From: Thiobacillus sp.
Lineage (GTDB): Bacteria; Pseudomonadota; Gammaproteobacteria; Burkholderiales; Thiobacillaceae
DNA: 14,456 nt
Assembly (NCBI GenBank): GCA_020217265.1
Contig: JAIWOS010000178.1
Coordinates: 1-14,456 of the forward strand
Reading direction: 5' to 3'
Both the position numbers and the translations under genes were made by a program. How positions within the stretch are numbered: position 1 is the stretch's first letter; every line of letters begins with the position of its first letter. Shown here in pieces: positions 1 through 14,456 of this stretch. The notes under the pieces were generated by a model. That model was not told where the DNA came from and searched no databases. It saw only the letters and a program-made list of their open reading frames with translations.

Positions 1-1091
1 GTGGTGGGCTTCATGCCGTACCACTTCTGGTAGTAGACCGGGCCCTGGCACTCGTCGCGCTCGATCATGTAGGCGATCAGGCGGTCGTCGTGTTCGCCTT
101 CCATCTTGCCGTAGCCCATGGTGCCGACGTGGATGCCGGACGCCCCTTGCAGACGCGCGATTTTCGCCAGCACGAAGGCGGTGTAGCCGCGCTTGGCGGA
201 AGGGCTGGTAATCATGCCGTGACCGGCGCGGTGGTAATGCAGGTACTGGTTGGGATACTGGCGACGCGCGGTGGTGATCATGCCGGGACCGCCAACGAAG
301 CCGTCGACGAGGAAGGCGACCTTGTCTGCATCGGGGCCGAAGGTTTCGAGGATGAAGTCGGCGCGCGCGCACATCTCATAGTGGTCGTCAGCGGTGATGT
401 TGGCCGAGAACAGCTTGGCCTGGCCGGTTTCGTCCTGCGCGCGTTTCATGGCATCGGCGACCAGCGGGATGGTTTTCTTCAGCGGCGAGAACACCTGGTT
501 GCCCTGCGGCTCGTCGTTCTTGATGAAGTCGCCGCCCAGCCAGAATTGGTAGGCGGCCTGGGCGAACGGCTCGGGCCGCAGGCCCAGCTTGGGCTTGATG
601 ATGGTGCCGGCGATGTAGCCGCCGTCCTTGACGGGGCGGCCGAGGATGCGCCACAGGTCGGAGATGTCCTTGGACGGGCCGTCGAACAGCTGAATGGCAC
701 GCTTGGGGAAATAGATGTCGATCATCTTGGCGTGCTCGATGTCGCCCATGCCCTGGTTGTTGCCGATGGCGAGCGTCAGGAAGGACACCATCATCATGCG
801 GCCGTCGGTGACGTTGCGGTCGAACAGATCCAGCGGATAAGCAATGCGCATATCCTCGGTGGCTTCGTCGATGTGATAGACCAATGCGTCGACGCCCTTG
901 GTGAAGTCGTCAGTGGTCGAGACTTCAACGTTGGTGCCGGTGGACGATTCGGCGGCGAAGTGCGCGGCGGCTTCGAGGTAGCCATGGCCGGCCTTCGGCT
1001 TCATTTTGTAGGCGACGAGGATGTGGCCCTCGCCCTTGATGAGGTCTTCTTCCTTGAGGGAAAGGTCGGCGTAGCGTGCGGATTGATCCAT
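1..1091 (-). CDS. cbbM: Form II ribulose-1,5-bisphosphate carboxylase/oxygenase (RuBisCO) large chain, partial (3' end outside window)
   Basis: It carboxylates ribulose-1,5-bisphosphate in the cytosol as the CO2-fixing step of the Calvin cycle. The visible 363 codons run without a break from the ATG at 1091, and roughly the last 95 of the usual ~460 residues lie off the left edge. Catalytic residues fall at exactly the Rhodospirillum rubrum form II positions: K166 in GTIIKPKLG, the carbamylated K191 with D193 and E194 in [10 protein letters not shown]287, H321 and loop-6 K329. An AGGAG ribosome-binding site lies nine bases before the ATG. It is divergent from cbbR, which probably controls it. 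Form II enzymes have no small subunit and low CO2 specificity and are not carboxysomal, so this copy likely serves at high CO2 or low O2, complementing the carboxysomal form I enzyme expected past the right edge. Assignment is secure. Confidence 0.97.
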
Positions 1092-1229
1092 GGTGTGCTC
1101 CTGTGACGATGCAAACCCCCGGCGCGATGGCGCAGGGGACGATGGTCGGCATCATAATCATATGCACATATAATTAAAATTTAATTATTATTATAAGTTT
1201 CATATCGCCGGACTTATACATCTGCCGCC
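1092..1229. promoter_or_regulatory. cbbM/cbbR divergent control region with probable CbbR operator
   Basis: This 138-bp intergenic interval separates the divergent cbbM and cbbR genes. Its centre (about 1151-1200) is strikingly AT-rich within a GC-rich window. It contains an odd-length palindrome at 1171-1187 with 8-bp arms TAATTAAA and TTTAATTA around one central base. LysR-type regulators bind such dyads (T-N11-A type), and CbbR classically binds the interval between its own gene and a cbb operon. A TATAAT match to a -10 box lies on the minus strand at 1190-1195, and two TATGAT matches lie near 1151-1159. None has a good -35 partner, as is common for activator-dependent promoters. Operator identity is inferred; the palindrome is seen directly. 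Confidence 0.7.
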
Positions 1230-2150
1230 ATGCGCCGCCTCACCCTGCGCCAGCTCCGCATTTTCGAAGCGGTCGCGCGCCATCTTTCGTTCTCGCGTGC
1301 CGCCGCCGAGCTGCACCTGTCGCAGCCCGCGGTATCGATCCAGGTCAAGGGAATAGAAGCGATTCTCGGCCTGCCTTTGACCGAGCAGCTCGGCAGGAAG
1401 GTTTTTCTCACCGACGCCGGGCGCGACGTGCTCCACGCCGCGCGCGCCATCACCGCGCGACTGGACGACCTGCAGGAAAACCTGGCGCAGCTGCGCGGGC
1501 TCGAAGGCGGTCGCTTGAGAATCGCGGTGACGTCGACCGCCAACCACATCGCCACCGATCTTCTCGCCCGGTTTCGCCAGCAGCTGCCGAGCGTGGCGCT
1601 GCATCTCGACGTGTCCAACCGCGCCGCCGTGCTCGCCCGGCTGGCGGACAACCAGGTCGATCTGGCGATCATGGGGCAGGTGCCGGAGGGTCAGGATCTG
1701 CTCGCCACGCGCTTCATGGACAATCCCCTGGGCGTGATCGCCGCGCCGGATCATCCCCTCGCCCGGCGCCGCCGCATCCCGCTTTCAGAACTGGCGCACG
1801 AATCCTTCCTGATGCGCGAGCCGGAATCCGGCACGCGCGCGGCAATCGAGCGATTCTTCGCCGACCATGACCTGGCGCCGCAGACCAGCATGGAAATGAA
1901 CAGCAACGGCGCGATCCGACGCGCGGCGAGCGTCGGCCTGGGCCTGGGCATTCTGCCCCTGCAAACGCTCGAGCTCGAATTGCAGCTCAAGCGGCTGGTC
2001 GTGCTCGATGTGGCAGGCTTCCCGCTCATGCGCCACTGGTACGTCGTTCACCGCACCGATAAGCGGCTGTCGCCGACGGCGCTGGCGTTCCACGATTTTG
2101 TGCTGAAAGCGCCCGGCGCGCCCGATCCGGCCGCCAGCAACGCCGCCTGA
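1230..2150 (+). CDS. cbbR: LysR-type transcriptional regulator CbbR
   Basis: This 306-residue protein is a typical-length LysR regulator. The N-terminal winged helix-turn-helix (about residues 1-62) begins RRLTLRQLRIFEAVARH and contains the recognition-helix segment LHLSQPAVSIQVKGIE. A periplasmic-binding-protein-like effector domain (about 90-295) follows. CbbR senses Calvin-cycle metabolites in other autotrophs and activates RuBisCO operons. Divergence from cbbM across a short palindrome-bearing interval is the classic arrangement and is the main reason for the specific name rather than generic LysR. The ATG at 1230 gives the expected N-terminus, although its ribosome-binding site is weak. 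The gene converges on the small ribbon-helix-helix gene with a 16-base gap. Whether it also controls the carboxysome operon, whose promoter is outside the window, cannot be seen. Confidence 0.9.
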   Translation: MRRLTLRQLRIFEAVARHLSFSRAAAELHLSQPAVSIQVKGIEAILGLPLTEQLGRKVFLTDAGRDVLHAARAITARLDDLQENLAQLRGLEGGRLRIAVTSTANHIATDLLARFRQQLPSVALHLDVSNRAAVLARLADNQVDLAIMGQVPEGQDLLATRFMDNPLGVIAAPDHPLARRRRIPLSELAHESFLMREPESGTRAAIERFFADHDLAPQTSMEMNSNGAIRRAASVGLGLGILPLQTLELELQLKRLVVLDVAGFPLMRHWYVVHRTDKRLSPTALAFHDFVLKAPGAPDPAASNAA

Positions 2151-2166
2151 GCGTTCTCTGCCGCGC

Positions 2167-2358
2167 CTACGCGGATTTGTCGGCGTCCTGCGGCAGGCCC
2201 GAGGGCTGCCAGGCCACGCCATGCTGCTTGAGGTAGTCGCGGATCATCTGGCGGATGACCTGCGACGGCGTCAGGTCCTGCGCGGCACACAAGTGCTCGA
2301 ACGCCTTCTTTTTCGCGGGATCGAGCAATACGGTCAAGCGAGCGGTTTTGGTTTCCAT
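2167..2358 (-). CDS. Small ribbon-helix-helix (CopG-like) DNA-binding protein
   Basis: It encodes 63 residues starting METKTARLTVLLDPAKKKA. A short basic beta strand (about 4-12), a first helix (about 13-25) and a second helix starting after LTPSQ (residues 26-44) give the ribbon-helix-helix pattern of the CopG/Arc/MetJ superfamily. Such proteins bind DNA as dimers through the paired strands, usually at palindromes. The ATG at 2358 is preferred; an in-frame TTG four codons upstream is less likely. The gene is divergent from the SulP transporter across about 107 bp holding a TATAAT box and two inverted repeats, so autoregulation and control of the transporter are plausible. There is no adjacent toxin gene, so I do not call it an antitoxin. 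The exact target is unknown. Confidence 0.75.
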   Translation of the reverse strand: METKTARLTVLLDPAKKKAFEHLCAAQDLTPSQVIRQMIRDYLKQHGVAWQPSGLPQDADKSA

Positions 2359-2465
2359 GGCATCATTCAATCAATTATCAGAGAATTATAATTTGACTGC
2401 ATTTGAAGTCACATTGCGGCCTCGGGCCTGCAGCAAGAAATAACAGCATTGAAAAGGCAAATTCC
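2359..2465. promoter_or_regulatory. Divergent promoter/operator region between the ribbon-helix-helix gene and the SulP gene
   Basis: On the minus strand a perfect TATAAT (2385-2390) lies 16 bases from a GTGACT element (2407-2412, four of six matches to the -35 consensus), a credible sigma-70 promoter for the ribbon-helix-helix gene. The -10 lies inside the perfect palindrome AATTATAATT (2384-2393). Next to it is an inverted repeat, TGACT (2394-2398) and AGTCA (2407-2411), separated by eight bases. Both are plausible operators for a dimeric ribbon-helix-helix protein. No convincing rightward promoter for the SulP gene is evident, but the palindrome also places TATAAT on the plus strand. Confidence 0.5.
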
Positions 2466-4094
2466 ATGATCGCTTTCGTCGAAGCCCATCGAGCCGGTCT
2501 GCTTGCGCGCGCGCACTGGCTGCCCAACCTCGCTGCCGGACTGGTGGTCGGCGTGGTCGCGCTGCCGCTGGCCATGGCGTTTGCGATTGCCAGCGGCGCC
2601 CGCCCCGAGCAGGGTCTGTATACCGCCATCGTCGCTGGCGCGCTGGTGTCGCTGTTCGGCGGCTCGCGCCTGCAGATCGCCGGGCCGACCGGCGCTTTCA
2701 TCGCACTGCTGTCGGTGATCACCGCGCAGCACGGCATCGTCGGCTTGCAGATCGCCACGCTGATGGCCGGGCTGATCCTCCTGGTGATGGGGCTGGCGCG
2801 CATGGGCGCGGTGATCCGCTACATTCCCACGCCGGTGATCGTCGGCTTCACGTCGGGGATTGCCGTCATCATTTTCGTCGGGCAGTGGCGCGACTTTCTC
2901 GGCCTGCCCAAGGTCGGCGGCGAGCATTTCCACGAAAAGGTCTGGCAGCTTATGCAGGTGATGCCGCAACTCGATCCGGCCACGCTCGCCGTCGGCGCCG
3001 CAACCCTGCTCGTGGTGATCTATTCGCAACGTCTGCCCGGCATGCAGCGCGTGCCCGGGCCGCTGACCGCGATGATCGTCGCCACGGTCGGGGTCTATGC
3101 GCTGGAGTTGGACAGCGTCGCCACCATCGGCAGCGCGTTTGGCGGCATCCCGTCTACGTTGCCGGCACCGTCCCTGCCCGAAGTGACGTTCGCGCAGGTC
3201 GTCACCCTGATCGGCCCGGCCTTCACCATCGCCATGCTGGGCGCGATCGAATCGCTGCTCTCGGCGGTGGTCGCCGACGGCATGGCTGGCACCCGTCACG
3301 ATTCCAACCAGGAACTCATCGGCCAGGGCATCGCCAACATCGCCGCGCCGATTTTCGGCGGTTTCGCCGCGACTGGGGCGATCGCGCGCACTGCGACCAA
3401 CATCCGCAACGGCGCGACTGGACCGCTCGCCGGGATCGTGCATGCCGCATTTCTGATCGCGGTGATCCTGTTCCTGGCGCCGCTTGCTGCGCACATACCG
3501 CTCGCCGCGCTGGCCGCGATCCTGTTCGTGGTGGCGTGGAACATGAGCGAGGTGGGGCATTTCGCGCATATCCTGAAAAAAGCACCGCGCGCCGACCGCG
3601 CGATCCTGGTCATCACCTTTGTCCTCACCGTGTTCGCCGACCTCGTCGTCGCGGTGAACGTCGGCGTGCTGCTCGCCGTGCTGCATGTGATCCACCGCAT
3701 GACCGAGACCTTCGACGCCCACCCCGCCGGCGACGACCTGCTTGCCCGCCACGGCGTCGGAACGCTGCCCGCCGACACGCTGGTCTACGACATTGAAGGC
3801 CCGCTCTTCTTCGGCGCCGTGGAAAATCTCGAGAACGCGCTGCTCTCCACGCACACCGAACCGAAGACCCTGGTGATCCGCATGCGGCTGGTGCCCTTCA
3901 TGGACATCACCGGCATCCAGACGCTGGAGAACGTGATCGCCAAACTGGCGAAACGCGGCATCCGGGTGGTGATCTGCGAAGCCAATACGCGGGTGCGCCA
4001 CAAGCTGGAAAAGGCCGGGGTGCTGGGGGGCGACAGCCCCACCCGTTATGCGGACAACCTGCGCGACGCGGTGAACGCCCAGGCGGCAGGCTGA
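2466..4094 (+). CDS. SulP-family (SLC26-like) anion transporter with C-terminal STAS domain, candidate bicarbonate transporter
   Basis: It encodes a 542-residue inner-membrane transporter. The N-terminal three quarters consist of many hydrophobic segments with SulP hallmarks: an early LPLAMAFAIASG segment, then GLYTAIVAG and the substrate-site region LQIAGPTGAF. The C-terminal STAS domain (about residues 430-535) carries DITGIQTLENV, the conserved phosphorylation-site region in related domains. The start at 2466 is chosen because an AAAAGG ribosome-binding site lies just upstream and it places the cytosolic leader normally; an in-frame ATG at 2403 would add 21 unlikely residues. The family transports sulfate, bicarbonate and other anions; BicA of cyanobacteria is a bicarbonate-sodium symporter. 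The position beside cbbM, cbbR and the carboxysome operon favours inorganic carbon uptake, but substrate cannot be read from sequence alone and sulfate remains possible. Confidence 0.88.
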   Translation: MIAFVEAHRAGLLARAHWLPNLAAGLVVGVVALPLAMAFAIASGARPEQGLYTAIVAGALVSLFGGSRLQIAGPTGAFIALLSVITAQHGIVGLQIATLMAGLILLVMGLARMGAVIRYIPTPVIVGFTSGIAVIIFVGQWRDFLGLPKVGGEHFHEKVWQLMQVMPQLDPATLAVGAATLLVVIYSQRLPGMQRVPGPLTAMIVATVGVYALELDSVATIGSAFGGIPSTLPAPSLPEVTFAQVVTLIGPAFTIAMLGAIESLLSAVVADGMAGTRHDSNQELIGQGIANIAAPIFGGFAATGAIARTATNIRNGATGPLAGIVHAAFLIAVILFLAPLAAHIPLAALAAILFVVAWNMSEVGHFAHILKKAPRADRAILVITFVLTVFADLVVAVNVGVLLAVLHVIHRMTETFDAHPAGDDLLARHGVGTLPADTLVYDIEGPLFFGAVENLENALLSTHTEPKTLVIRMRLVPFMDITGIQTLENVIAKLAKRGIRVVICEANTRVRHKLEKAGVLGGDSPTRYADNLRDAVNAQAAG

Positions 4095-4100
4095 GCCGCC
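4082..4100. other. Short hairpin at the convergent sulP/csoS1D junction
   Basis: A 6-bp inverted repeat, GGCGGC (4082-4087) and GCCGCC (4095-4100), with a 7-base loop spans the SulP stop codon. It lies between the SulP and csoS1D genes, whose stop codons are only 22 bases apart. No T-run follows on either strand, so it is at best a weak or transcript-stabilising element. No better terminator is visible here. Confidence 0.25.
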
Positions 4101-4116
4101 GTGCACCGGCCCGGCC

Positions 4117-4752
4117 TCAGTCGTGCCCGCTCTTAGCACGCAGGTTGAGCTGCTCGATCGCCTTCATCGCCGCGGCCTGCGCTGCCTCGGCCTCGGCCTC
4201 GGTGCCCATCATCGTCAGGCGCCCGAAGTTGCCGAAGGCTTTCACGTCGACCAGCGTGATGTGCGCGCCCTTCTCCGCCTCGTTCGCCGCGTAGACGATA
4301 TAACCCGCCGGCTCGACCTCGAGGATGAACATGCTCTTGCCGGGCAGGATCATCGATCCCTTGCGCATCTGCCGGTTGATGAGCGTGGTGTGGTCCGGCG
4401 TCATGCCGCGGATGATCTCGTTCCACGCCACCTTGCACGAATGGCGCGATTCGACAGTGGTGTTGAGCTGGCGCAGGATGATGTCGCCGGCTTCCATCAC
4501 CTCGCTCTGGTTGCGGTAGTGGATCTCCATGGAGCCGAACGAGCGTTCGACGACCTGCTCGCCAAGGTGGACGTTGGTTTCCTTCAACGCGATGTCGGAT
4601 AGCCGGTGCACCGCCATGCCGGGCGCGACCTCGACCCACAGGCAGGCATCGCCTGGCACCGGCAGGAAGCCCTGCGACGAGGTGGCCAAGTAGGAGGCCA
4701 GCTGCGGCTGCAGCGAGTCGATGAAGACGAAGGTGCGGAGATGGACTTTCAT
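4117..4752 (-). CDS. csoS1D: Carboxysome shell protein CsoS1D (tandem-BMC trimer, BMC-T)
   Basis: It encodes 211 residues with two bacterial-microcompartment folds: about residues 5-100 ([13 protein letters not shown], then ALKETNV, VVERSFG) and about 105-203 ([30 protein letters not shown], then AFGNFGRL). In Prochlorococcus CsoS1D the trimers stack and open or close a large central pore, using a Glu-Arg pair in the VERLYG motif. Here the pair is E69-R70. The protein probably forms gated pores in the shell for larger metabolites such as ribulose bisphosphate. The N-terminal extension of cyanobacterial homologues is absent, as expected for a ~210-residue proteobacterial form. The start at 4752 is set by the LRTFVF onset; an open frame extending further upstream runs antisense-like inside cbbO. 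It follows cbbO by 11 bases as the last gene of the operon. Homology is recognised from memory of the family. Confidence 0.85.
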
Positions 4753-4763
4753 GGGCGGAAGAA

Positions 4764-7118
4764 TCAGCGGGTCAGGCCCATGTAGAGCATCGGCAATTTC
4801 TCGGGCAGCCGTTCGAGGTGGTCGATGACGGTGTAGTTCTTGGCGCCGAAGATGCGCGACACGTACTGGTCGGCGTGCGGGTCGAGCGACAGCGCGTACA
4901 CCGTGACGCCCTCGCGTGCGAGCTCTTCCACCGCGCGCTTGGTGTCGAAGCGGTGGTATTGCGGGTCGCGCGTGTCGTTGTCGGCCGGCTCGCCGTCTGT
5001 GATGACGAAGCACACCTTGCGCGAAGCCGGACGCAGCTTGAGGAAGGAGCCGGCGTGCCGCAGCGCCGCGCCCATACGCGTCGAATACGCGCCTTTCATG
5101 CCGGCGAGCCGCGCCTTGACGAGATCATTGTACGGCGCGTCGAAATCCTTGAAGCGGTAGTAGTGCACGTCGTGCCGCCCGTCGGAACAGAACCCGTGCA
5201 GCGCGAAGGAATCGCCGATGCGGTCGAGCGCGTCGGAGAGCAGCACCGTCGCCGAGCGGGTGAGGTCGAGCACCGAGTAATCGTGCCCCTTGACCTTGTC
5301 GTTCGACGACTCGGACATGTCGAGCAGAACCATCACCGCCAGATCGCGCTCGTTGCGCTTGTAGCGCATCATGATGCGGGTATCCGGCTGCTGACCCATT
5401 CTTATGTCAATCATGGCCCGCACGGCAGCGTTGATGTCGAGCTCGTCGCCGTCCTCGACCCGGCGGATGCGCTGCATGCCCTGCGGGATCATCGATTCGA
5501 TGAGGTACTTGAGCCGCGAGATCGTCGGCTTGTTGTCGGTGATGATCTTCTCGATGACGTCGATATCGCCGATCTGCGGATGGCGTTCAAGCACTGTGAC
5601 CCAGCTCGGACGCTCGAGCTGGATGGTGTAGTCCCACTCGTGGTAGTGCACCGGGTCGGCCATCGGCGGGCGGCCTTCGAGCGAGTTGATCGAGACGCCT
5701 TCCTGGTCGAGGAAGAATTCGGTTTCGAGCACCCAGATTTCCTCGGCGTCGTCGCCCGCGAATTCGTTGTTGACCTCGTTGACCATCTCCATCACGGAGA
5801 CTTTCTTCCTGATCTGTTTCGGCCCCCAGGTCGCTTCCAGCGCTTCCGCCTCGTCGTACTCTTCCGACTCCCACACCGTGCGGTTGTCGTCGCGGTAGAT
5901 CGCGCGCAGGCTGTCCGTGCGCACGTTGAATTCGGGCAGCCCCTCGGGCAGGTAATGCACCAGCTCTATGCCAAGGTTCCAGCTGGTCTGCGCGGTGTCG
6001 AGTTGATCCTGGGCGGCACGGAAGAGCTCGACGCCCTTCTGCACCCACGGATGCGGGTCGCGCGTCTCCATTTCCAGCAACGCACGCGCGAGCCGGTTGA
6101 TGAGGTCGCCGATCGTCTTCGGCTCGACATACTCGAACACCGGGTGCAGCGCCAGCCAGGAATCGCGCATGTTCGGGAACTGGCGAATCGCCAGCGCCTC
6201 GACGCGCGCGTCCTCGAACGCTTCGATCACCGCCATCTGCAGCGTCGAGAGCATCTGCATCGACAGCGGTTCCTTGCTGAAGGCCAGGTGGGCGGCGCAG
6301 TGGTTGGCGGCGGCGCGGTAGATCTCCACGCCCGAGACGATCCGGTCTTCCGGCGTGGCGTCACCCAGCGGACGGTAGTCGTCGTAGGCGTCGGCGATAT
6401 GAATGACGAAGCGCTCGATGTAGGGCTTCAGGCCCTCGCGCGACTCGTAGTCGCCGGCGGTCGGGCGCAGGAAGAAATCCCGGCCCCACATCGCGCGCAG
6501 GTAAATGTTGAGCCGGCGCTGCACGTCGACGAAGAGCGTGCCCTTGCGCTCCTGCTGCAGCACCGACAGGGCATCGGGGCTTTGCAGAGAGAAGTACTTA
6601 AGCTGGCCGTCGAAGTCGGCCTTGTAGGCCTGCGCGCCCCACATCACCCAGCGCCGCAGGCCGCCGAGCGTGAGCTGCGTCAACAGCCTGTCGAGGTTTT
6701 CCAGCATCGGCCGCAGGCCGCGCGGCGCCTGCGCCAGCATGATGGACAGCACGTTGAGGTAATTGCGAAAGACGTTCTCGTCGCCCAGCCGCTCTGCCGC
6801 CAAAGGCGCGGTGCCGGCGATCAGCGCGAGCACCTGACCCGAGGTCTTCGACGCCATGCCGAGCAGGAAGTTGACGATGTCCGGCAGCACGTCCTCGCCG
6901 ATGGCGCGCGCGACTTCCGGCATCGCCTGCAGATACGAAACGACCACCTCTTCGCCGCGCCCGAGGTTGTGCAGCGCGACCGCGCCCTTCATGAAGTTGT
7001 CCAGCCCGCGTGCGGAGAACGCGCGCGCGGCTTCGTTCCACGAACCGCGCAGCACGTCCTGCGCGTCGGTGGGAAGCTCTTCCAGGAGCTCGCTGTACTC
7101 TTCGATGTGGATGGCCAT
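4764..7118 (-). CDS. cbbO: RuBisCO activase subunit CbbO (von Willebrand factor A domain protein)
   Basis: It encodes 784 residues, the usual CbbO length. CbbO is the adaptor of the CbbQO activase: one CbbO docks on a CbbQ hexamer and binds RuBisCO, so that ATP-driven remodelling releases inhibitory sugar phosphates. The N-terminal two thirds are the helical, CbbO-specific region. The C-terminal von Willebrand A domain (about 595-784) has a complete metal-ion-dependent adhesion site: D600-x-S602-x-S604 in LLDMSESS, T680 in YSTRMG and D708 in TDGEP. An acidic insert near 440-460 (AGDDAEEIW) precedes it. The ATG at 7118 has only a weak ribosome-binding site and lies just after a strong hairpin with T-tract that separates it from cbbQ, suggesting lower expression than cbbQ. 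Confidence 0.95.
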
Positions 7119-7128
7119 GGCTCAGGGC

Positions 7129-7180
7129 AAAAGGAAAACGGCGCGGCACGCGGTCGACTGGATGACCGCGCGCCGCGCCG
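7129..7180 (-). terminator. Terminator-like hairpin between cbbQ and cbbO
   Basis: On the transcribed (minus) strand a 17-bp stem forms between 7180-7164 and 7155-7139, with one G-U wobble (7171 with 7148) and an 8-base loop. It is followed directly by TTTTCCTTTT (7138-7129). On the plus strand the wobble becomes an A-C mismatch, so the structure is best suited to the sense RNA. It starts nine bases past the cbbQ stop. A GC-rich stem plus T-tract is the signature of an intrinsic terminator; because cbbO and csoS1D follow with no visible promoter, it is probably a partial terminator or a 3'-end processing and stabilising element. Confidence 0.7.
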
Positions 7181-7188
7181 CCATCCGG

Positions 7189-8100
7189 TCAGAAGTAGGT
7201 GGTGACCGCCGAATCCAGCGCGTCGCGCATGTCCGGGTCGTCGGTGATCGGCCGCACCAGTGCCATGCGGCAGGCGCCGAGCGCCGGCACGCCCTTGGCG
7301 ATCAGGCTGCCGGCGTAGATCAGCATCCGCGTCGACAGGCCTTCGTCCAGACCATGCCCCTTGAGGTTGCGCGCGCGCTCGCCGATGTGGACGAGATTCT
7401 TCGCCACGTCGAGCGACACCCCGGATTCGTGGGCGACGATCTCGGCTTCGACTTCATGCTCGGGATAGTTGAAGTCGAGCGCGCCGAAACGCTGCTTGGT
7501 CGACTGTTTCAGATCCTTCATCAGGCTCTGGTAACCAGGGTTGTACGAAATCACAATCTGGAAGTCGGGGTGGGCTTCGATCATTTCGCCCTTCTTTTCC
7601 AGCGGCAGCTGGCGGCGCGCGTCGGTCAGCGGGTGGATCACCACGGTGGTGTCCTGCCGCGCCTCGACGACTTCGTCGAGATAGCAGATCGCGCCGAGGC
7701 GGGCGGCGACCGCGAGCGGGCCGTCCTGCCAGCGGGTGCCGTTGGCGTCGAGCAGGAAGCGGCCGACCAGGTCGGACGCGGTCATGTCCTCGTTGCACGC
7801 CACGGTGATGAGCGGCTTGCCGAGTTTCCACGCCATGTATTCGACGAAACGCGTCTTGCCGCAGCCGGTCGGGCCCTTCAGCATCACCGGCATGCGCACC
7901 GCGTAGGCCGCTTCGTACAGCTCGACTTCGTCGGCGACCGCGCGGTAGTAAGGCTCCTTCTTGACGCGGTAGGCGTCCAGCAGGTTGCTGCCGGTATCGG
8001 AGGCAGGACGCACGTCGGCTGTCGGGCGCTGCTGCGCGGCGGCGCGCGCCAGCGCTTCCTGGCGCGGTGAATAGGTGCGCATGAAGGGATCGTTACGCAT
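7189..8100 (-). CDS. cbbQ: RuBisCO activase AAA+ ATPase CbbQ
   Basis: It encodes 303 residues of the MoxR-group AAA+ ATPases. CbbQ forms hexamers that, with CbbO, use ATP to reactivate inhibited RuBisCO; in Halothiobacillus it associates with the carboxysome. Walker A is GPTGCGKT (76-83), Walker B is YLDEVVEA with D142-E143, sensor-1 Asn is N187 in SYNPGY, and a likely arginine finger is R204 in TKQRFG. The core aligns from about residue 42 ([11 protein letters not shown]). The first ~40 residues (Ala/Gln/Arg-rich) exceed the usual ~265-270 length and look disordered. The ATG at 8100 is supported by an AAAGGAA ribosome-binding site; an internal ATG at 8082 would shorten the extension by only six residues. 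It follows mcdB by 18 bases. Confidence 0.95.
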
Positions 8101-8118
8101 GGAAAGTTCCTTTGTTCT

Positions 8119-8427
8119 TCAGTCCGGCCAGACACGCTGCGGATGCAGGGTGCCATTGGAATCGGGAATGCCGCCGGCGTGCACGCGGGTCGCGCTCGGC
8201 TGAGCGGCCGGCGACTTCGCCGTGGCTGCGGCCGCGGGCGCCGGTTTGGGAGCGGCTGGCTTGGCTGCGGTCTTTGCCGGGGCCGCCTTGGCTGCGACGG
8301 GTTTGGCGGCCGGTTTGGCGGCGACAGCACGTTTGGGGGCGGGCCGGGCTGCCGGTTTCGCGGCAGGCTGCTGTGCAGCCTTGGCCTGGCGGACGCTGGC
8401 CGCCAGTTTGTCTTTCATCGTGCTCAT
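8119..8427 (-). CDS. mcdB: Carboxysome positioning adaptor McdB (alpha-carboxysome type)
   Basis: It encodes 102 residues, almost entirely low complexity: a basic N-terminus (KDKLAASVRQAKAAQQ), a long Ala-Lys-Pro tract with repeated AAKPAAKP-like units (about 20-75), and a conserved-looking C-terminus GGIPDSNGTLHPQRVWPD. McdB proteins are intrinsically disordered adaptors that load on carboxysomes and stimulate the ATPase of McdA, spacing carboxysomes over the nucleoid. Alpha-type McdB carries a near-terminal tryptophan important for carboxysome association; here it is W100 in RVWPD. The start codon overlaps the mcdA stop as ATGA, implying translational coupling, and a GAGGTG ribosome-binding site is present. 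The Lys/Ala/Pro composition alone could suggest a histone H1-like protein, but its position beside mcdA and the terminal motif favour McdB. Confidence 0.85.
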   Translation of the reverse strand: MSTMKDKLAASVRQAKAAQQPAAKPAARPAPKRAVAAKPAAKPVAAKAAPAKTAAKPAAPKPAPAAAATAKSPAAQPSATRVHAGGIPDSNGTLHPQRVWPD

Positions 8428-9056
8428 GCGATCACCTCATTGATTATGGCTTCGATTTCAGCCACGGCGGGAGCGCCGCGACTGCCCAGCTGATAGACCG
8501 AGGCACCTTCGAGCGCGGCGGCGCGGTAAATGGCGCGGCGGCGGATCCCTGCGTCGAGCACCGGGAGTCCGAATTCCGCCAGCGCATCGTGCATGGCCAC
8601 CGACAGCGCGCTCTTGGGTTCAAGCTGGTTGAGCACCAGATACGCCTGCAGCTCGGGATTGCGCTTCTTCGCTTCGGCAATTTCCTCGGGCAGCTTGAGA
8701 CTCGCCCACAGGTCCACCGGCGACGGCAGCACCGGGATCAACGCCAGATCGCAGGCGCGCATTGCGGCCTGCGGACCGTGCGCGTCGATCGAGGGCGGAC
8801 AGTCGAGCACGGCATAGCGGTAGGCCTTGAAGGTTTTCTTCAGGTCCGCCGCCTCCCAGCGACCGTTCAGGGTCTTGACCGTTGCGGGGAACGGCGCCCC
8901 GCCCGAGCTCGCCCATTGCAGCGATGAGCCCTGCGGGTCCAGATCTACCACGACGGTTTCGCCGCGCCGCGCCAGACCTGCGGCCAGATTCATGGCCAGC
9001 GTGGTCTTGCCCGCGCCGCCCTTCTGGTTGATGACCGCGATGATGCGGGTGGCCAT
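8424..9056 (-). CDS. mcdA: Carboxysome-positioning ParA-type ATPase McdA
   Basis: It encodes 210 residues of the ParA/MinD P-loop family. The deviant Walker A motif QKGGAGKTT gives the signature lysine K12 and nucleotide-binding K17. Walker A' is VVVDLDPQGSS with D40, and Walker B is YAVLDCPPS. In the ATP state such proteins dimerise and bind nucleoid DNA non-specifically; McdB-stimulated hydrolysis creates gradients that distribute cargo. Location within an alpha-carboxysome operon immediately before mcdB identifies the cargo as carboxysomes rather than a chromosome or plasmid, and no ParB gene is nearby. One base separates its ATG from the preceding acRAF stop (TGAGATG) and it overlaps mcdB by four bases, so all three are translationally linked. 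Confidence 0.93.
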   Translation of the reverse strand: MATRIIAVINQKGGAGKTTLAMNLAAGLARRGETVVVDLDPQGSSLQWASSGGAPFPATVKTLNGRWEAADLKKTFKAYRYAVLDCPPSIDAHGPQAAMRACDLALIPVLPSPVDLWASLKLPEEIAEAKKRNPELQAYLVLNQLEPKSALSVAMHDALAEFGLPVLDAGIRRRAIYRAAALEGASVYQLGSRGAPAVAEIEAIINEVIA

Positions 9057-9057
9057 C

Positions 9058-9321
9058 TCAACTCCGCACGATCAGCGCATCGACCCGGCGCGCGAAGACG
9101 GTATCGGCGTCGCTCAGGGTTTCCCCGTCCGCGGCCTCGAGCGTGACGTTGACGTAGGTCGTGCCGAAGTTGATGTTCTGCGGATGGACGCCGGTTTCCT
9201 CCGACAAGGCCGCGAGCGCGTCGAGAAACGCCCGGGTCTCGCCGTAGGCGCCGAACGAAAAACGCCGGAACAGCGTCGGCGGCTTGCCGCGCGCTTCCCA
9301 GCCTGCCGGCAGTTCAGCCAT
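9058..9321 (-). CDS. Alpha-carboxysome RuBisCO assembly factor acRAF (pterin-4a-carbinolamine dehydratase-like)
   Basis: It encodes 87 residues starting MAELPAGWEARGKPP. The protein has the pterin-carbinolamine-dehydratase-like fold pattern: the RRFSFGAYGETRAFLDALAA helix region and VHPQNINFGTTYVNVTL strand region. Members of this group in cso operons (acRAF) act as chaperones for form IA RuBisCO assembly and are not expected to act on pterins. The ATG at 9321 is preferred because GGAG lies at proper spacing before it. An in-frame GTG at 9336 would add five residues. Its start overlaps the end of the bacterioferritin-like gene by eight bases, and mcdA follows after one base. Family assignment is strong; in vivo role is transferred from characterised homologues. 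Confidence 0.88.
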   Translation of the reverse strand: MAELPAGWEARGKPPTLFRRFSFGAYGETRAFLDALAALSEETGVHPQNINFGTTYVNVTLEAADGETLSDADTVFARRVDALIVRS

Positions 9322-9748
9322 GTCGTTCTCCGCCACCCAGGGTGGCCAATGCGTTCACGTGTTCCATCTCTTCGCGCAGGATACTGGCGAAAAGCTGGGC
9401 GCATTCGCCGTCGCGCATCCGCTCGGCGTGAGCCAGTGCTTGCTGATACAGGCGCACCGCGTCCACTTCGAGCTGATGATCGGCTGCGAGGAGGGCATCT
9501 GCCGTGCGCCCGAGGCGCGACGGCGGCAGGTTGCCCGCCGACGGCGCGACGCCCAGCTTGATGAGCGATTCCATCAGGCGTTCGGCGTGGCCCAACTCCT
9601 CGATCGCCTCGTGCCGCAATTCCGCCGCAAGCCTGTCGTCGCCCCATAGTCGGGCAAGCACGCTCTGGGCGAGGTACTGCTGCACCGCGCTCATTTCGTG
9701 AGTGAGCGCGCGCGCGAGCCAGCCCAGCGTTCGCGGATCGACGCTCAT
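9314..9748 (-). CDS. bfr: Bacterioferritin-like diiron protein of the carboxysome operon
   Basis: It encodes 144 residues forming a four-helix ferritin-like bundle. All six ferroxidase ligands fall at the same numbers as in E. coli bacterioferritin: E18, E51, H54, E94, E127 and H130 (motifs HEMSAVQQY, EELGHAE, DHQLEVDA, REEMEH). The heme-ligating Met52 is replaced by Leu52, and the C-terminal fifth-helix region is shorter than the usual ~158 residues, so it probably binds no heme and may not form a full 24-mer cage. A GGGAG ribosome-binding site precedes the ATG. Such genes recur in proteobacterial cso operons, where the role is unproven; iron storage or peroxide protection near RuBisCO are possibilities. 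It follows csoS1 by 23 bases and overlaps acRAF. Confidence 0.88.
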   Translation of the reverse strand: MSVDPRTLGWLARALTHEMSAVQQYLAQSVLARLWGDDRLAAELRHEAIEELGHAERLMESLIKLGVAPSAGNLPPSRLGRTADALLAADHQLEVDAVRLYQQALAHAERMRDGECAQLFASILREEMEHVNALATLGGGERHG

Positions 9749-9771
9749 GCTGTCTCCCGATACCGAGCGTG

Positions 9772-10110
9772 TCAGCTCTGCGTCATCGTGATTTCAGCAT
9801 CGCGCCCGCCGCCCGACGCGTCGGGTTTGGTCGGCAGGATGCCTTCGACTTCGCTGTGGACACGGGCGATGATGTGCGCGGCCACCAGACCGTCGCCCAC
9901 GCGCTCGCACGCATCGGCGCCGGCACGAACCGCCGCGTTCACCGCGCCGGTTTCGCCACGCACCAGAACTGTCACGTAGCCACCACCGACGAATTGACGG
10001 CCGATCAGACGAACTTCTGCCGCCTTGGTCATCGCGTCCGCCGCTTCGATCGCGGGAACCAGACCGCGGGTTTCGATCATGCCCAGGGCAATACCCATAC
10101 GTTCAGCCAT
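9772..10110 (-). CDS. csoS1: Major carboxysome shell hexamer CsoS1 (BMC-H)
   Basis: It encodes 112 residues. Residues 5-95 are a single bacterial-microcompartment domain nearly identical to canonical CsoS1 (IALGMIETRGLVPAIEAAD, then GRQFVGGGYVTVLVRGETG). Hexamers of this protein tile the shell facets, with small charged pores that pass bicarbonate. A Gly/Ser-rich C-terminal tail (about 98-112, ending EITMTQS) makes it similar in length to CsoS1B of Halothiobacillus rather than the 98-residue CsoS1A/C. It is the only such gene in this operon, where three tandem copies are common. Strong translation is expected from AAGGAG eight bases before the ATG, and a GC-rich hairpin lies in the 98-base gap upstream. 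Confidence 0.96.
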   Translation of the reverse strand: MAERMGIALGMIETRGLVPAIEAADAMTKAAEVRLIGRQFVGGGYVTVLVRGETGAVNAAVRAGADACERVGDGLVAAHIIARVHSEVEGILPTKPDASGGGRDAEITMTQS

Positions 10111-10208
10111 TTCAATACTCCTTCTTCAGTTCAAAGTTGATAACGAAACTTGCCTTGCCGCGCCAGCGCCCGCTGCGCGGCCGCCGCTTTGCTCTTTACA
10201 CCACCGTG
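10111..10208 (-). promoter_or_regulatory. csoS4B-csoS1 intergenic leader with hairpin and strong ribosome-binding site
   Basis: This 98-base gap is the longest inside the visible carboxysome operon. It holds a GC-rich inverted repeat at 10157-10181: 7-bp outer arms, then one unpaired base, then a 4-bp inner stem closing a 2-base loop. No T-run follows, so it is not a classical terminator. The consensus AAGGAG sits just before csoS1. The combination suggests RNA processing or stabilisation to raise CsoS1 relative to the upstream genes. The structure is seen; its role is inferred. Confidence 0.5.
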
Positions 10209-10454
10209 TCACGCATCCCAGTCGTCGATGATTCCGCAGATGGTGAGATCGGTCATCGTCTTCACATCGGGCATCGCCAGCCTGGCCGCGCTGCCCACGT
10301 TGGTAAACACCCATTTCCCCGGCGGCACGCCGACCGGGTCGGTCGCCACCAGGAGTGCGCCCTTGTTCGTCTCCAGCACGCGCAGCGAGGCGGCCTTGAG
10401 GCCGGGAACCCGCCGCGTGCATACCAGATCGCCCCGGACGCGCATGATTTCCAT
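10209..10454 (-). CDS. csoS4B: Carboxysome vertex pentamer CsoS4B (BMC-P)
   Basis: It encodes 81 residues of the CcmL/EutN pentamer family. Motifs are MRVRGDLVCTRRVPGL at the start, ATDPVGVPPGKWVFTNVGSAAR in the middle and TDLTICGIIDDWDA at the end. Pentamers cap the twelve vertices of the icosahedral shell and prevent CO2 leakage. The ATG at 10454 shares its A with the csoS4A stop (TGATG), implying translational coupling; a second in-frame ATG at 10445 is possible, but MEIMRV matches the usual start of the B paralogue. Order after csoS4A supports the letter B. Confidence 0.94.
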   Translation of the reverse strand: MEIMRVRGDLVCTRRVPGLKAASLRVLETNKGALLVATDPVGVPPGKWVFTNVGSAARLAMPDVKTMTDLTICGIIDDWDA

Positions 10455-10714
10455 CAGGCGTTCGCCTCCGGATCCCAGTGGTCGATGATGCCGACGATGG
10501 TGAGATCGGACGGAAACTCGCGGCTGCCGGCGGCTTCCCGCGCGGCCGACGAACTCACGCAAATCACCCAGTCGCCCGGAATGCAGCCGACGGCGTCCAC
10601 CGCGACGGCGCGTGCGCCGCCGACTTTTTCCTGCACGACCAGGAGCGGCTTGTGGCCGAACTGATCGAGACGGTTGGTCGATACCAGGGTTTTTTCGACG
10701 CGCATGATCCTCAT
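10454..10714 (-). CDS. csoS4A: Carboxysome vertex pentamer CsoS4A (BMC-P)
   Basis: It encodes 86 residues of the CcmL/EutN family and is paralogous to CsoS4B. Visible family motifs are MRIMRVEKTLVSTNRL, AVDAVGCIPGDWVICVSSSAAR and SDLTIVGIIDHWDPE. It forms pentamers at shell vertices. The ATG at 10714 is chosen because MRIMRV matches the family start and GAGGAG lies eight bases upstream. That ribosome-binding site overlaps the csoSCA stop codon (10725-10727), tying its translation to that gene. It ends by sharing one base with csoS4B. Confidence 0.94.
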   Translation of the reverse strand: MRIMRVEKTLVSTNRLDQFGHKPLLVVQEKVGGARAVAVDAVGCIPGDWVICVSSSAAREAAGSREFPSDLTIVGIIDHWDPEANA

Positions 10715-10724
10715 CGAAAGCTCC

Positions 10725-12272
10725 TCAATGTCCCGCGTCCGCGGCCGCGTCTTCGAAGAAGGCGCAACGCTCGGTATCGAAACGGTCCGACACCGCCGTC
10801 CGGCAGGCAAGCAGGCCTTGCGCAGTCAGCGCAGGGTAGCGCGCCTCGATGGCGGCCTTCACGCGTTTGGCGCGCAGCACAGCGCGTGCGCGCGAGCCGG
10901 GTACGTGAGACGAATAATAAAAATGCACCAGAACCGGGACCGGCAGTCCGTGACGGATGTTCAGCCCGGTGAAAATCTTGATCCCCACATCCATGTCGGC
11001 CGCGCCTTCCTCGACCGTGTCGAGGTGGGCGTAGTAATACTTGTTGCGCAACTGGACATAGCTCGTCGCCTCGCCTGCGCAGATCAGCGCCTCGTCATGG
11101 CCGATCACGGCGTAGCGTCCGGCATGGTGCTGAATCACGTATTCGATTTGCGAGAAATTGGCCTCGGCGAGCGCCAGCACCAGCTTCCACATGCCGTCGG
11201 CCATCTTGCCCTGGCCTTCGGCCCAGCCGCCGGCGGCTTCGGCCGCCGCGAGTTCGGCGGCGATCTTGGCGCGCGCGCCCTCCCGGCTCATGCCCAGCGT
11301 GTCGCGATAGAGCGTCGCGGTATCGATGTAGCGGTACGGGCTGACGTCGCCATTGCCATCCGGCAGGTGGATGCGCAGGGCGTCGATGTCGGTGTCTAGC
11401 CCGATCAACAGGATGTCGGGCGCGGCGCCGACACCGTAGGTGTTCTCGACGGCGACGCGCAGTTCGTTGAGACGGGCGAGCGCCGATTCGGTCGCAAGCT
11501 TGTCGTTGCTGCCGTGCGCCGCGCAGCCCTGGTCGCAGGCATGCGAGCTGCTGTAGTGGTAGACCGCGATCTTGAGATAGTTGAGCGATTCGCCGTCGGC
11601 AATCGCGCCGGACAGGCGCTCGAGCTCGCGGTGGCTCCAGTCGACGACATCCGCCTCGACGTCGAACATCGCGCCGGCGTAGGCCTTCACGTAGGTGTTC
11701 CGGTTCGGCGCCATGCGGAACACGAAGGGCAGGAGGCCCTGCAGGCGACCGTCGGCGCACGGCGATATATCGACCGTGTGGTAGCCGCATGCGGCGAGGA
11801 ATTCGGCGGTAATCGGCATCCGCTCGATCCATAGCGCCTGGTCGGCCTCCATGGAATCGACGCTGACCCTGAAGCTTTCGAATACGCAATGCGCATACAA
11901 GGCCTTCATGTCGAGGCCGGACACCCAGGCGTCCTCGAGCATGCCCTGCGGCAGCGCGTATCCCAGCCGTTCCAGCGCGAGACGCTGCGCGCGCTCGACG
12001 AAGTCGTGGTCGTGCTGGTGCGCGGAAATTTCTTTCAGCACGCCGATGATGCGCGAGAAGCGCCCGCGTACGGTTTCTTCGTATTCGTACAGGCGGCGGT
12101 TGAGTTCGGCGTCGACCAGTGCGTGCTCGCAACGCTGCCCCGCGCCGAGGCTGCACGCCGGATTGGCGAGCGCGCCGGTTTCAGCCGCCACCCGCACGGC
12201 GTGCGTTCCGCTGGCACCCGCCTCGCGGGCTTGGGCCTGACGCATCGCGACGAGACGTTTACGCGTATTCAT
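10725..12272 (-). CDS. csoSCA: Carboxysomal beta-type carbonic anhydrase CsoSCA
   Basis: It encodes 515 residues, the normal length for this shell-associated enzyme (formerly CsoS3, epsilon class). It converts bicarbonate to CO2 inside the carboxysome next to RuBisCO. The N-terminal helical region (about 50-145) is followed by the catalytic domain, with zinc ligands C172, H239 and C250 by position against the Halothiobacillus enzyme (C173, H242, C253). The Asp-Arg dyad is D174-R176 in SPCADGR. The third, degenerate symmetric domain occupies the C-terminal third. The disordered first ~50 residues (RLVAMRQAQAREAG onward) may contact RuBisCO, as shown for the Halothiobacillus protein. It lies 18 bases after csoS2 and 10 before csoS4A. 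Confidence 0.96.
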   Translation of the reverse strand: MNTRKRLVAMRQAQAREAGASGTHAVRVAAETGALANPACSLGAGQRCEHALVDAELNRRLYEYEETVRGRFSRIIGVLKEISAHQHDHDFVERAQRLALERLGYALPQGMLEDAWVSGLDMKALYAHCVFESFRVSVDSMEADQALWIERMPITAEFLAACGYHTVDISPCADGRLQGLLPFVFRMAPNRNTYVKAYAGAMFDVEADVVDWSHRELERLSGAIADGESLNYLKIAVYHYSSSHACDQGCAAHGSNDKLATESALARLNELRVAVENTYGVGAAPDILLIGLDTDIDALRIHLPDGNGDVSPYRYIDTATLYRDTLGMSREGARAKIAAELAAAEAAGGWAEGQGKMADGMWKLVLALAEANFSQIEYVIQHHAGRYAVIGHDEALICAGEATSYVQLRNKYYYAHLDTVEEGAADMDVGIKIFTGLNIRHGLPVPVLVHFYYSSHVPGSRARAVLRAKRVKAAIEARYPALTAQGLLACRTAVSDRFDTERCAFFEDAAADAGH

Positions 12273-12290
12273 GATCGCAAGCTGCCGCGC

Positions 12291-14456
12291 TTAACCGCGC
12301 GCCCCTCCGGAGAGCGTGACGGTCGCGCCACCACGGGTGTTGCCCGACGAGCCGGTGATGCGCGACTCAGGCACTTCCACGCGCTCGACTTCACGGAACA
12401 CCTGCGCGTTCACGCCGGCGCCACGCGGCTGGCCGCGCAGCGAAGAATTGCGCGCCAGGCTCGATGCGCCTTCGGTGCCGGTCACGCGGCTCTGAGCGTG
12501 CCAGGCGTCGCCGGTGATGCGCGAGCCTTCCCGGCCTTCGCCGGTGAGGCGGCGGGCGGCAGCGACGGCCTCGGCTGTCTCGACCTGCGCCACGGCGGCG
12601 TCGCGGTGACGGAACTCCGGCGTGCCGGTGATGAGGCCCATGGCCTTGTTCACCGGCCCGGTGATGCGGTCTTCGGCCAGGGAGGTACCGGTCACGTCGT
12701 TGTAACGCAGACGCTGGGCATAACGCGCGGGCGACTCGATGCTGAAGTCGGCCGGCGCCGGCTCACGCGAAGGCACTTCGAAACTGCGGGCGCGGGAGAC
12801 GAAACGGCCGCTGGTCGCACACGCCTTTGCCGCATTGTCCGCGCCGACGTAGGGCGTGCCCGAAATCACTTCGCAGGCGCCGCGCTCGTCGCCGGTCATT
12901 ACGCTGCCGCCTGCGCCGGGGCGGTCGCCGGTGACGGCGGTGGCGGGAATCACCGCCATCTGCTTGACGCGTGCGGCCTGGGCGTCGAGGTCGGGCGCGG
13001 GGCAGAAGCCCGCGAACTGGCCACGGCCGATATAGGGCGTGCCCGACACGGGCGCGCAGGCGCCGTATTCGTTGCCGGTGACCAGGGCGTCGCGACCGGG
13101 ATAGCTACCGGTCACGGGCTGGCCGCGAAAGGTTTCATCGACGATCACTTTTTCCACGGGCTTGACGGCTTGGGTGCTGTCGCACACGGCAGCAAGCTGC
13201 GCGTGCGAGACGTAATCGATACCGGTGACGGGCTTGCACCCGAACGACTCGTCACCGGACAATTTTGGGCTGGGAGCCACCTCGGTGCCCGACACGGCAC
13301 GACCGCCCAGGGTCGGCATCACGCTGACCTTGCGCGGTCCGCCGGCGGTGCCGGTTTTGCACAGGGGCGCGAAATCCGACTGGGTGTAGTACTGGTTGCC
13401 GGTAATCGCGCGGCACGAGCCGGGCTCGTTGCCGGTCACGTTGTCGGCGCGGCCGACGTTGACGCCGGTCACGGTTTCGCTGTCGCGCGACGACATGACG
13501 CTGACCTTGCGCGGGTGCGCGGGCGCCTCGGCGCCGCACACCGACGTGTACTGTTCGGCGGCCAGGTATTCGGTGCCGGTGATGCCGCGGCAGGCGCCGG
13601 GCTCATCGCCGGTGATCTTGGCGGTATGGCCGACAGCGGTGCCGGTCACGGCCTTGCCGCCTGCGGTATGCGTCAGCGTGACCTTGTCGGGCGCGGTGTC
13701 CGCCGCACTCGCCATGTAGCGGGTGCCCGTCAGGCTGCGGTCCGCACCGGGTTCGTCGCCGGTAACCTTGGGCGAGCGTCCCACCATGGTGCCGGTGAGG
13801 GTTTCGCCCTTGTGCGTTTCGGTGACGCCAACCTTGACCGGCGCCGGCGCGGGCTTGCTGGCACAGAATTCGGCGTAACGCTCGGCCGACAGGTACTCGG
13901 TGCCGGTGATGCCGCGGCAGGCGCCCGGCTCGTCGCCGGTCACTTTCTGCGAACGGCCCACTTCGGTGCCCGAGACGCGATGCTCGCGCAGCGTGGTGGA
14001 GACGCCGACCTTGGCAGGCGCGGGCGCCGGACGCTTGGCGTCGCACAGCGCGTCGAACTGCTCGGCGCCGACGTATTCGGTGCCGGTGACGGGGCGGCAG
14101 GAGCCGGGCTCGTTGCCGGTCACCTTGCGGCTGCGGTCGGTCATGGTGCCGGTAACCGGCTGGCCGGCGAGGGTATGACCTTCTTCGACCTTCACCGGCG
14201 CTGCGGCATTCACGTTGCGCACACGCATGCGACCGGTCGGACGGGATTCGGACTTGCTCGTCCCGGCACGGCCCGTGAGCGCCTGCACCAGACGGCGTTG
14301 CATCGCGACCTGGCGGCCGGTCGCGCCCTTGGTGATGGCGGCCTGCCAGTCCTGGCCCGGCATGGCGGCGGCGATCTTGGTCGCCTGCGCCACGCGCTTC
14401 AGCCCGGCCTTGCCGTCCTGTGCCAGCGCCGCGCGGCGGGCGCGGGCGAGCGCGCG
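12291..14456 (-). CDS. csoS2: Carboxysome assembly scaffold CsoS2, partial (5' end outside window)
   Basis: The visible 721 residues lack the true N-terminus, since the frame stays open to the right edge. CsoS2 is a largely disordered linker that gathers RuBisCO through N-terminal basic repeats and anchors to the shell through its C-terminal region. The last of the N-repeats is seen as RALARARRAALAQDGKAGLK at the edge. The middle region (about visible residues 89-485) has seven ~50-residue repeats with the pattern VTGT, VTGDEPG, AC, ITGTEY and a final Cys. The C-terminal region (about 500-721) has further ITG/VTG motifs and ends in the conserved GGATVTLSGGARG. A -1 slippery site inside the sixth repeat predicts a shorter isoform. 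An internal GTG at 14393 should not be taken as the start. Confidence 0.95.
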   Translation of the reverse strand, partial: RALARARRAALAQDGKAGLKRVAQATKIAAAMPGQDWQAAITKGATGRQVAMQRRLVQALTGRAGTSKSESRPTGRMRVRNVNAAAPVKVEEGHTLAGQPVTGTMTDRSRKVTGNEPGSCRPVTGTEYVGAEQFDALCDAKRPAPAPAKVGVSTTLREHRVSGTEVGRSQKVTGDEPGACRGITGTEYLSAERYAEFCASKPAPAPVKVGVTETHKGETLTGTMVGRSPKVTGDEPGADRSLTGTRYMASAADTAPDKVTLTHTAGGKAVTGTAVGHTAKITGDEPGACRGITGTEYLAAEQYTSVCGAEAPAHPRKVSVMSSRDSETVTGVNVGRADNVTGNEPGSCRAITGNQYYTQSDFAPLCKTGTAGGPRKVSVMPTLGGRAVSGTEVAPSPKLSGDESFGCKPVTGIDYVSHAQLAAVCDSTQAVKPVEKVIVDETFRGQPVTGSYPGRDALVTGNEYGACAPVSGTPYIGRGQFAGFCPAPDLDAQAARVKQMAVIPATAVTGDRPGAGGSVMTGDERGACEVISGTPYVGADNAAKACATSGRFVSRARSFEVPSREPAPADFSIESPARYAQRLRYNDVTGTSLAEDRITGPVNKAMGLITGTPEFRHRDAAVAQVETAEAVAAARRLTGEGREGSRITGDAWHAQSRVTGTEGASSLARNSSLRGQPRGAGVNAQVFREVERVEVPESRITGSSGNTRGGATVTLSGGARG
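13002..14192 (-). repeat. CsoS2 middle-region tandem protein repeats (about seven units)
   Basis: Seven imperfect units of about 50-60 codons share a core of VTG-type triplet, KVTG(D/N)EPG, Cys, ITGTEY and a closing Cys. Unit starts are near 14192 (KVEEGH), 14009 (KVGVST), 13832 (KVGVTE), 13682 (KVTLTH), 13508 (KVSVMS), 13331 (KVSVMP) and 13151 (KVIVDE). The third unit lacks both cysteines. At DNA level the VTG and TGDE codons create many GGTGAC/GTCACC inverted pairs, which should be kept in mind when judging hairpins here. Confidence 0.88.
13222..13269 (-). promoter_or_regulatory. Predicted -1 programmed ribosomal frameshift signal in csoS2
   Basis: On the coding strand the heptamer CCCAAAA (13269-13263) is read in frame as C-CCA-AAA, the exact X-XXY-YYZ pattern for tandem -1 slippage. 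Four bases later a 9-bp perfect stem, CCGGTGACG (13258-13250) with CGTCACCGG (13230-13222), encloses a 19-base loop. After slippage the ribosome reads Pro-Lys-Ile-Val-Arg and stops at TGA (13254-13252). The short product would end in the sixth repeat without the C-terminal region. In Halothiobacillus, csoS2 frameshifting is known to make CsoS2A and CsoS2B, which supports the call. Confidence 0.82.

Follow-up and report, generated by a model that had tools for sequence, protein, structure and literature searches.

A probable programmed -1 frameshift signal of the Halothiobacillus type in csoS2 of a Thiobacillus sp., and a second, differently built candidate signal in related csoS2 genes

Introduction

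Programmed -1 ribosomal frameshifting in csoS2 of Halothiobacillus neapolitanus was reportedly first described by Chaijarasphong et al. in 2016. The short isoform of this organism, CsoS2A, is given as 570 residues long, including three residues from the -1 frame, with an efficiency of ~ 50%, and frameshifting has been predicted in 79 of 162 species (PMC5009743). The site is placed in the sixth M repeat (PMC11365436; PMC11481516; PMC12918739). Carboxysomes of H. neapolitanus and Thiomonas intermedia are reported to contain two CsoS2 forms in a ratio of ~ 1:1, and those of Prochlorococcus MED4 and Thiomicrospira crunogena a single form (PMC4499774). The short form is described as non-essential (PMC11365436), and an influence on shell size and curvature has been suggested (PMC11481516). 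Here, we describe a candidate signal of the same kind in csoS2 of a Thiobacillus sp., found in contig JAIWOS010000178.1 of GenBank assembly GCA_020217265.1 (positions 1 to 14,456). This whole stretch of 14,456 nucleotides (nt) is referred to as the window.

The dnaX gene of Escherichia coli shares with the window a three-part layout, consisting of a Shine-Dalgarno (SD)-like element ~ 10 nt upstream, a slippery heptamer and a hairpin, and its short product likewise ends soon after the slip. The dnaX heptamer is A_AAA_AAG, whereas that of the window is C_CCA_AAA, for which reason the window is not filed as dnaX-type; the two genes are moreover unrelated. In the IS1 and IS3 families the shifted product is the longer fusion, in contrast to the shortened product of csoS2. 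Frameshift regions of these families likewise combine a slippery heptamer with SD or structural stimulators (PMC4066793). For E. coli, the same source lists both C_CC.A_AA.A, the heptamer of the window, and C_CC.A_AA.G as shifty, places C_CC.A_AA.G and A_AA.A_AA.G within the three most efficient heptamers and gives 54% frameshifting for C_CC.A_AA.G in the presence of a strong stimulator (PMC4066793).

Results and Discussion

The 3' 721 codons of csoS2 occupy positions 12291-14456 on the minus strand as an open frame matching Pfam CsoS2_M (PF12288, 543 bits), the 5' end of the gene being cut off by the end of the contig. On the same strand, an SD-like GAGG (13280-13283), which scores as such by the published rule, stands 10 nt upstream of the slippery heptamer C_CCA_AAA (CCCAAAA, 13263-13269), an in-frame X_XXY_YYZ at which the deepest synonymous trough of the gene starts. 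A 4-nt spacer, TTGT (13259-13262), separates the heptamer from the 5' arm CCGGTGACG of a putative stimulatory hairpin (13250-13258), and the complementary 9-base 3' arm CGTCACCGG follows at 13222-13230. In the consensus fold described below, this hairpin is bulged, with GGG (13239-13241; GGG in 58/65 genes of the classical type) as inner 5' strand and a 3' arm CCCGTCACCGG (13222-13232) that consists of an inner CCC and the outer GTCACCGG. In the -1 frame, three sense codons follow the slip before a TGA (13252-13254) that arises from a GGT Gly codon and would terminate CsoS2A after P-K-I-V-R. The 0-frame product would thereby lose ~ 325 codons and be truncated before its C-terminal domain. An earlier, sequence-only reading of the window had described the in-phase heptamer, the 4-base spacer, the 9-base complementary arms and the -1 TGA three codons after the slip; all are present at those places and in that phase, with P-K-I-V-R-TGA read to 13254-13252.

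The position of the site agrees with the published one. HMMER aligned SPKLSGDESFGC of the window with APKMSGDERGGC of H. neapolitanus CsoS2 (PDB 9ly8, 869 aa), placing the Pro-Lys pair on residues 566-567, and the 570-residue CsoS2A matches this register, since 567 + 3 gives 570. The two systems have in common the gene, the repeat, the Pro-Lys pair and the three -1 residues before the stop, and the H. neapolitanus stem-loop, also downstream of the slip, is reported to exceed that of dnaX in complexity (PMC5009743, PMC12312397, PMC12918739, PMC11481516, PMC11365436). They differ in the tail, which is I-V-R in the window, and in the SD-like element ~ 10 nt upstream; for H. neapolitanus, a review states that no SD is apparent (PMC5009743), and the comparison rests on that statement. 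A metagenome-assembled genome labelled T. intermedia carries an identical PKIVR* cassette. The residue-for-residue homology with P566-K567 supports the earlier proposal that this organism uses the same control as Halothiobacillus. Judged from sequence, the cassette is very probably a programmed -1 ribosomal frameshift signal orthologous to that of H. neapolitanus. The window site is thus a further example of an already known type of signal; what is added here are the SD-like element, the analysis of arms and folds, the joint losses in relatives and, above all, a second class of signal.

The codons of the cassette are uncommon within the gene. The CCA at the slip is the sole CCA among the 44 Pro codons of csoS2 in the window, AAA accounts for 4 of 27 Lys codons, GGT for 11 of 90 Gly codons and TTG for 1 of 26 Leu codons. 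Across other K-x-[ST]-G repeats of genes with the classical cassette, the Gly codon that gives rise to the TGA is GGT in 32 of 149. When synonymous codons were shuffled, the slippery bases and the TGA recurred at the same place in 5/5000 shuffles, and a canonical in-frame heptamer with a -1 stop within 11 codons occurred in 59/5000. The sequence-only reading had regarded both AAA and TTG as unusual for this gene and the slippery bases as seemingly kept against the repeat consensus. Their rarity holds, but TTG does not belong to the signal, because the codon following Lys varies freely across relatives (synonymous ratio 0.9).

For comparison, CsoS2_M was searched in three sets of genomes and found in 35 of 300 from the order, 54 of 100 from the family and 2 of 398 from a phylum sample. 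The phylum sample added no csoS2-bearing genome, its two matches being that of the window and one already known (G043). Up to 30 loci were taken from each genome search, and a scan of named genomes used the best 80 of 558 relatives. The resulting 141 csoS2 frames, including that of the window, comprise 128 genes distinct in their last 300 residues. The classical cassette, C_CCA_AA[A/G] with a -1 stop at equal distance, defines class 1 and selects 65 of the 128; 30 form class 2, described below, and 33 belong to neither class. One of the latter (L022) carries the heptamer with the -1 stop one codon later. Outside the 128, the cassette is present on a Nitrobacter hamburgensis plasmid, and the canonical in-frame heptamers scanned for are absent from the locus on a Thiodictyon plasmid.

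In a quick protein tree of 124 rows with midpoint rooting, from which four partial rows were left out, the clade of the window comprises 60 rows, 57 of which hold CCA-AAR together with the -1 TGA. The tree requires five changes for class 1 and three for class 2. Within class 1, the Lys codon of the slip is AAA in 42 and AAG in 23 genes. Synonymous variation in the 15 codons from the slip codon onward, slip codons included, falls to 0.37 of expectation, the deepest trough of the gene; the next separate spans lie at 0.65, 0.83 and above, with a median of 1.01 and a standard deviation of 0.11. A looser coverage filter yields another span at 0.52, and both this and the 0.65 span lie at the poorly covered 5' end. 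Hairpin codons on which the choice of rows did not depend are frozen as well (GGG 0.22, CCC 0.01, GTC 0.00, ACC 0.06). Retention of CCA-AAR and the TGA in the clade, with normal variation at synonymous sites beyond the cassette, is the outcome that the sequence-only reading had anticipated for an alignment of relatives.

The SD-like element was scored by the published rule (PMC4066793), which assigns one to 57/65 class-1 genes, compared with 191/1237 random in-frame places. In the clade of the window, the element is present in 54 of the 57 class-1 tree rows; with all three partial rows off the tree this makes 57/60, and it is present in none of the five class-1 genes outside the clade. The upstream Glu codon is GAG at 58/59 class-1 sites versus 70/132 other T-G-T-E-type places, and GGAGG occurs at 39/59 versus 8/132. 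The element looks like an addition to the classical site in this clade, because the review of H. neapolitanus finds no SD apparent there (PMC5009743).

Pairing of the arms was evaluated at 63 sites, those class-1 sites caught by the search motif. The six outer arm bases are fully paired, G-U pairs allowed, at 63/63 sites versus 16/407 other repeats. A fairer control is provided by the 72 other repeats that share the GGTGA 5' arm, and full pairing occurs in 11 of these. The earlier caution that such repeats generate stems by themselves is therefore correct in part, but it does not explain the pairing at this site.

RNAalifold, applied to 64 of the 65 class-1 genes (one, L106, ends too early), predicts a bulged hairpin as consensus. 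It consists of GGUGAC, 12 unpaired columns (9 nt for the majority of rows), GGGU, a loop of 4 nt, ACCC and GUCACC. With this structure held fixed, 97.7% of cells are paired, a value reached by 0/500 shuffles; the covariation score and the count of cells with both sides changed exceed 500/500 shuffles as well. The GAC/GTC pair changes jointly to GAT/ATC in 6/64 rows. For 43 nt of the window alone, the predicted energies are -18.2 kcal/mol for a 9-bp stem with additional inner pairs, -16.1 for the bulged form and -15.3 for the plain 9-bp stem.

Natural losses provide a further view of the cassette. The three rows of the clade that lack it, L102 and the pair L110/L111, have a broken heptamer, no SD-like element and a 3' arm that does not match in full, and the usual GAG is replaced by GAA or AAA. 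All three retain the GGT-GAC that yields the -1 TGA. Replacement of the heptamer in relatives had been proposed as a check on the sequence-only reading; in these three, where the heptamer is replaced, the SD-like element is missing too and the arms do not pair fully. We read the three rows as the joint decay of what would be one device, on two occasions.

From these features, we infer slippage, its efficiency and the formation of two proteins as follows. The downstream hairpin, whose exact form is likewise predicted, would pause ribosomes as they decode S-P-K in the counterpart of the sixth M repeat. In the clade of the window, pairing of 16S rRNA with GAGG or GGAGG ~ 10 nt upstream should assist the slip. 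The P- and A-site tRNAs would then re-pair from CCA-AAA to CCC-AAA. Slipped ribosomes would add I-V-R and end at the TGA; their product, the short CsoS2A, would lack the shell-anchoring C-terminal domain. Ribosomes that do not slip would give full-length CsoS2B. That the short form tunes the amount of scaffold lacking the shell anchor, as previously suggested for this organism, would follow by analogy with H. neapolitanus.

Other origins of these features have to be weighed. In a repetitive gene, repeat codons and base composition might by themselves generate heptamer and stem, in which case no frameshifting would occur: a -1 TGA is also present in 24/149 other K-x-[ST]-G repeats of class-1 genes, the GTCACC arm recurs in 25/407 other repeats, and synonymous shuffling places a canonical in-frame heptamer somewhere in csoS2 in 523/5000 cases. 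The sole CCA of the gene at the slip, the coincidence of the site with its deepest synonymous trough, the full pairing in excess of repeats with a matching 5' arm and the joint absence of the elements in three relatives speak against such an origin, which we consider very improbable. Equally small is the chance that an incidental heptamer lies among codons frozen for another RNA-level cause, for example mRNA folding, an RNase site or the target of a small RNA. Synonymous conservation by itself names no cause, and the hairpin codons do lie within the frozen block; the trough begins, however, at the heptamer and exactly at the place where frameshifting is reported for H. neapolitanus. Transcriptional slippage on the A run could also produce a short form, but the run amounts to merely four A in the window and is interrupted by AAG in place of AAA in 23/65 class-1 genes, whereas RNA polymerase slippage requires longer runs. 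This last explanation appears the most far-fetched of all.

Several observations weigh against a frameshift signal in the window, or limit what can be drawn from the comparison. The presence of CCA and GGT in 65/65 class-1 genes, together with much of the 5' arm, holds by construction, because these rows were selected by heptamer and stop; independent evidence comes from the count in the clade, from the 3' arm, from the remaining frozen codons and from the SD-like element. Covariation in the stem rests on one pair, because most stem pairs never vary, and the number of pairs changed on both sides is equalled in 322/500 shuffles, that of further pair types in 499/500. The best predicted fold of 65 nt of the window (-19.9) does not contain this stem. 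Neither cassette is present in 33/128 csoS2 genes, and two isoforms are for that reason not universal. The organism, finally, is represented solely by a draft genome that is 84.6% complete and contains one csoS2. As regards the hairpin, a downstream stem-loop is provided by the complementary arms and the predicted consensus fold; the exact fold in the window is uncertain, and the case for frameshifting is independent of it.

The second signal is built differently. Class 2 comprises 30 of the 128 distinct csoS2 genes (L113-L135, L004, L005, L018, L023, L024, L026 and L089), 19 of them from the genus of the window. Their heptamer is A_AAA_AAG in 27 and A_AAA_AAA in 3, and it is sited earlier in the gene than the classical site, in the M region, with 28 codons of -1 frame up to a TGA. 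This frame encodes a conserved basic tail of ~ 26 residues, about KKGGNPSHERWRNGERHPTGSLVETFRR. SD-like 4-mers end mostly 7-13 nt ahead of the heptamer, and the SD rule identifies an element in 29/30 class-2 genes compared with 70/562 control places. Selection of the class included the -1 stop at codon 28, so that the T that creates the stop (in third position of Asp codons in 18, Ala in 9 and Val in 3 genes) is conserved partly by construction.

The class-2 clade of the tree spans five families, lacks the classical site and keeps heptamer and stop in 28/29 rows; in the exception, L015, both are gone and the SD rule still finds an element. Across the 28 codons, synonymous variation drops to 0.28 of expectation in the 29 genes other than L089, compared with 0.77 in the next span, and becomes about normal again past the stop. 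Within the overlap, similarity is higher for the -1 peptide (0.733) than for the 0-frame (0.678), whereas three ungapped control blocks outside it show the reverse order (0.51-0.53 versus 0.71-0.80). RNAalifold on the same 29 genes gives a patchwork and no single proximal hairpin; a 9-pair hairpin 31 nt past the heptamer has 94.0% of cells paired (11/500 shuffles as high) and weak covariation. L089 itself bears a gammaproteobacterial label and lies outside the clade; behind its A_AAA_AAA (from 4792 on), a perfect hairpin of 14 bp is predicted, unlike in the other class-2 genes folded.

In the family search, the genus of the window is represented by 26 csoS2-bearing genomes, that of the window included; 19 belong to class 2, and the window and G694 were the ones classed among the remaining seven. 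The search for class-2 type sites covered 12 of the 65 class-1 genes and the 33 genes outside both classes. Class-2 csoS2 shares its heptamer with E. coli dnaX, and we read the class as a separate, dnaX-like candidate frameshift cassette. The literature searched, within the portions covered and with the founding 2016 paper outside them, holds no mention of it. It seems rather likely that csoS2 frameshifting arose or moved more than once; such convergent means would imply that the short form itself is under selection.

A hidden third class was considered and rejected. Neither of two synonymous scans shows a trough comparable to those of classes 1 and 2: among 14 Thioalkalivibrio-type csoS2 genes the lowest values are 0.0 and 0.6 (both at the 5' end) and 0.73, and among ten csoS2 genes of three further families (f29, f35 and f43) they are 0.59 (5' end), 0.69 (near the 3' end) and 0.71. 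A G_GGA_AAG in Thioalkalivibrio was likewise discarded, because the distance to its -1 stop is not constant (3 or 19 codons).

On the 3' side of csoS2, the window continues with csoSCA, a csoS4-type gene and the remainder of an alpha-carboxysome locus. The latter includes CsoS1 (9772-10110, named by eye), a ferritin-like protein (9314-9748, Pfam), acRAF (9058-9336, named by eye), a ParA-like ATPase (8424-9056, Pfam; McdA by eye) and its small partner without Pfam match (8119-8427; McdB by eye), CbbQ (7189-8100, Pfam), a VWA protein (4764-7118, Pfam; CbbO by eye) and a weak BMC match below the Pfam cut-off (4117-5013; CsoS1D by eye). Beyond the cso genes lie a SulP-like transporter (2403-4094, plus strand) and a lysR-like gene (1230-2150, plus strand), both named by eye, as well as a form II-like Rubisco large subunit on the minus strand, located within 1-4094 and cut by the contig end (Pfam; form II by eye). 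In the same genus, csoS2 of the class-1 locus L143 is immediately preceded by a match to the Rubisco large subunit, 33% identical to CbbM of the window and of form I by eye. At the class-2 locus L141, the sequence directly upstream matches lysR, and 18 kb yield no match to Rubisco. Separation of cbbLS from csoS1-4 may be common to the whole family Thiobacillaceae, as suggested in PMC9164163.

Conclusions

If the class-2 signal operates as proposed, the short isoform of these organisms would lose more of the C-terminal half than that of class 1 and would carry a basic tail. The deep conservation of the classical cassette, the added SD-like element, the joint losses and the second signal would together argue that the ratio of the two CsoS2 isoforms is under selection. 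Natural signals of this kind could supply parts of differing strength for tuning engineered carboxysomes.

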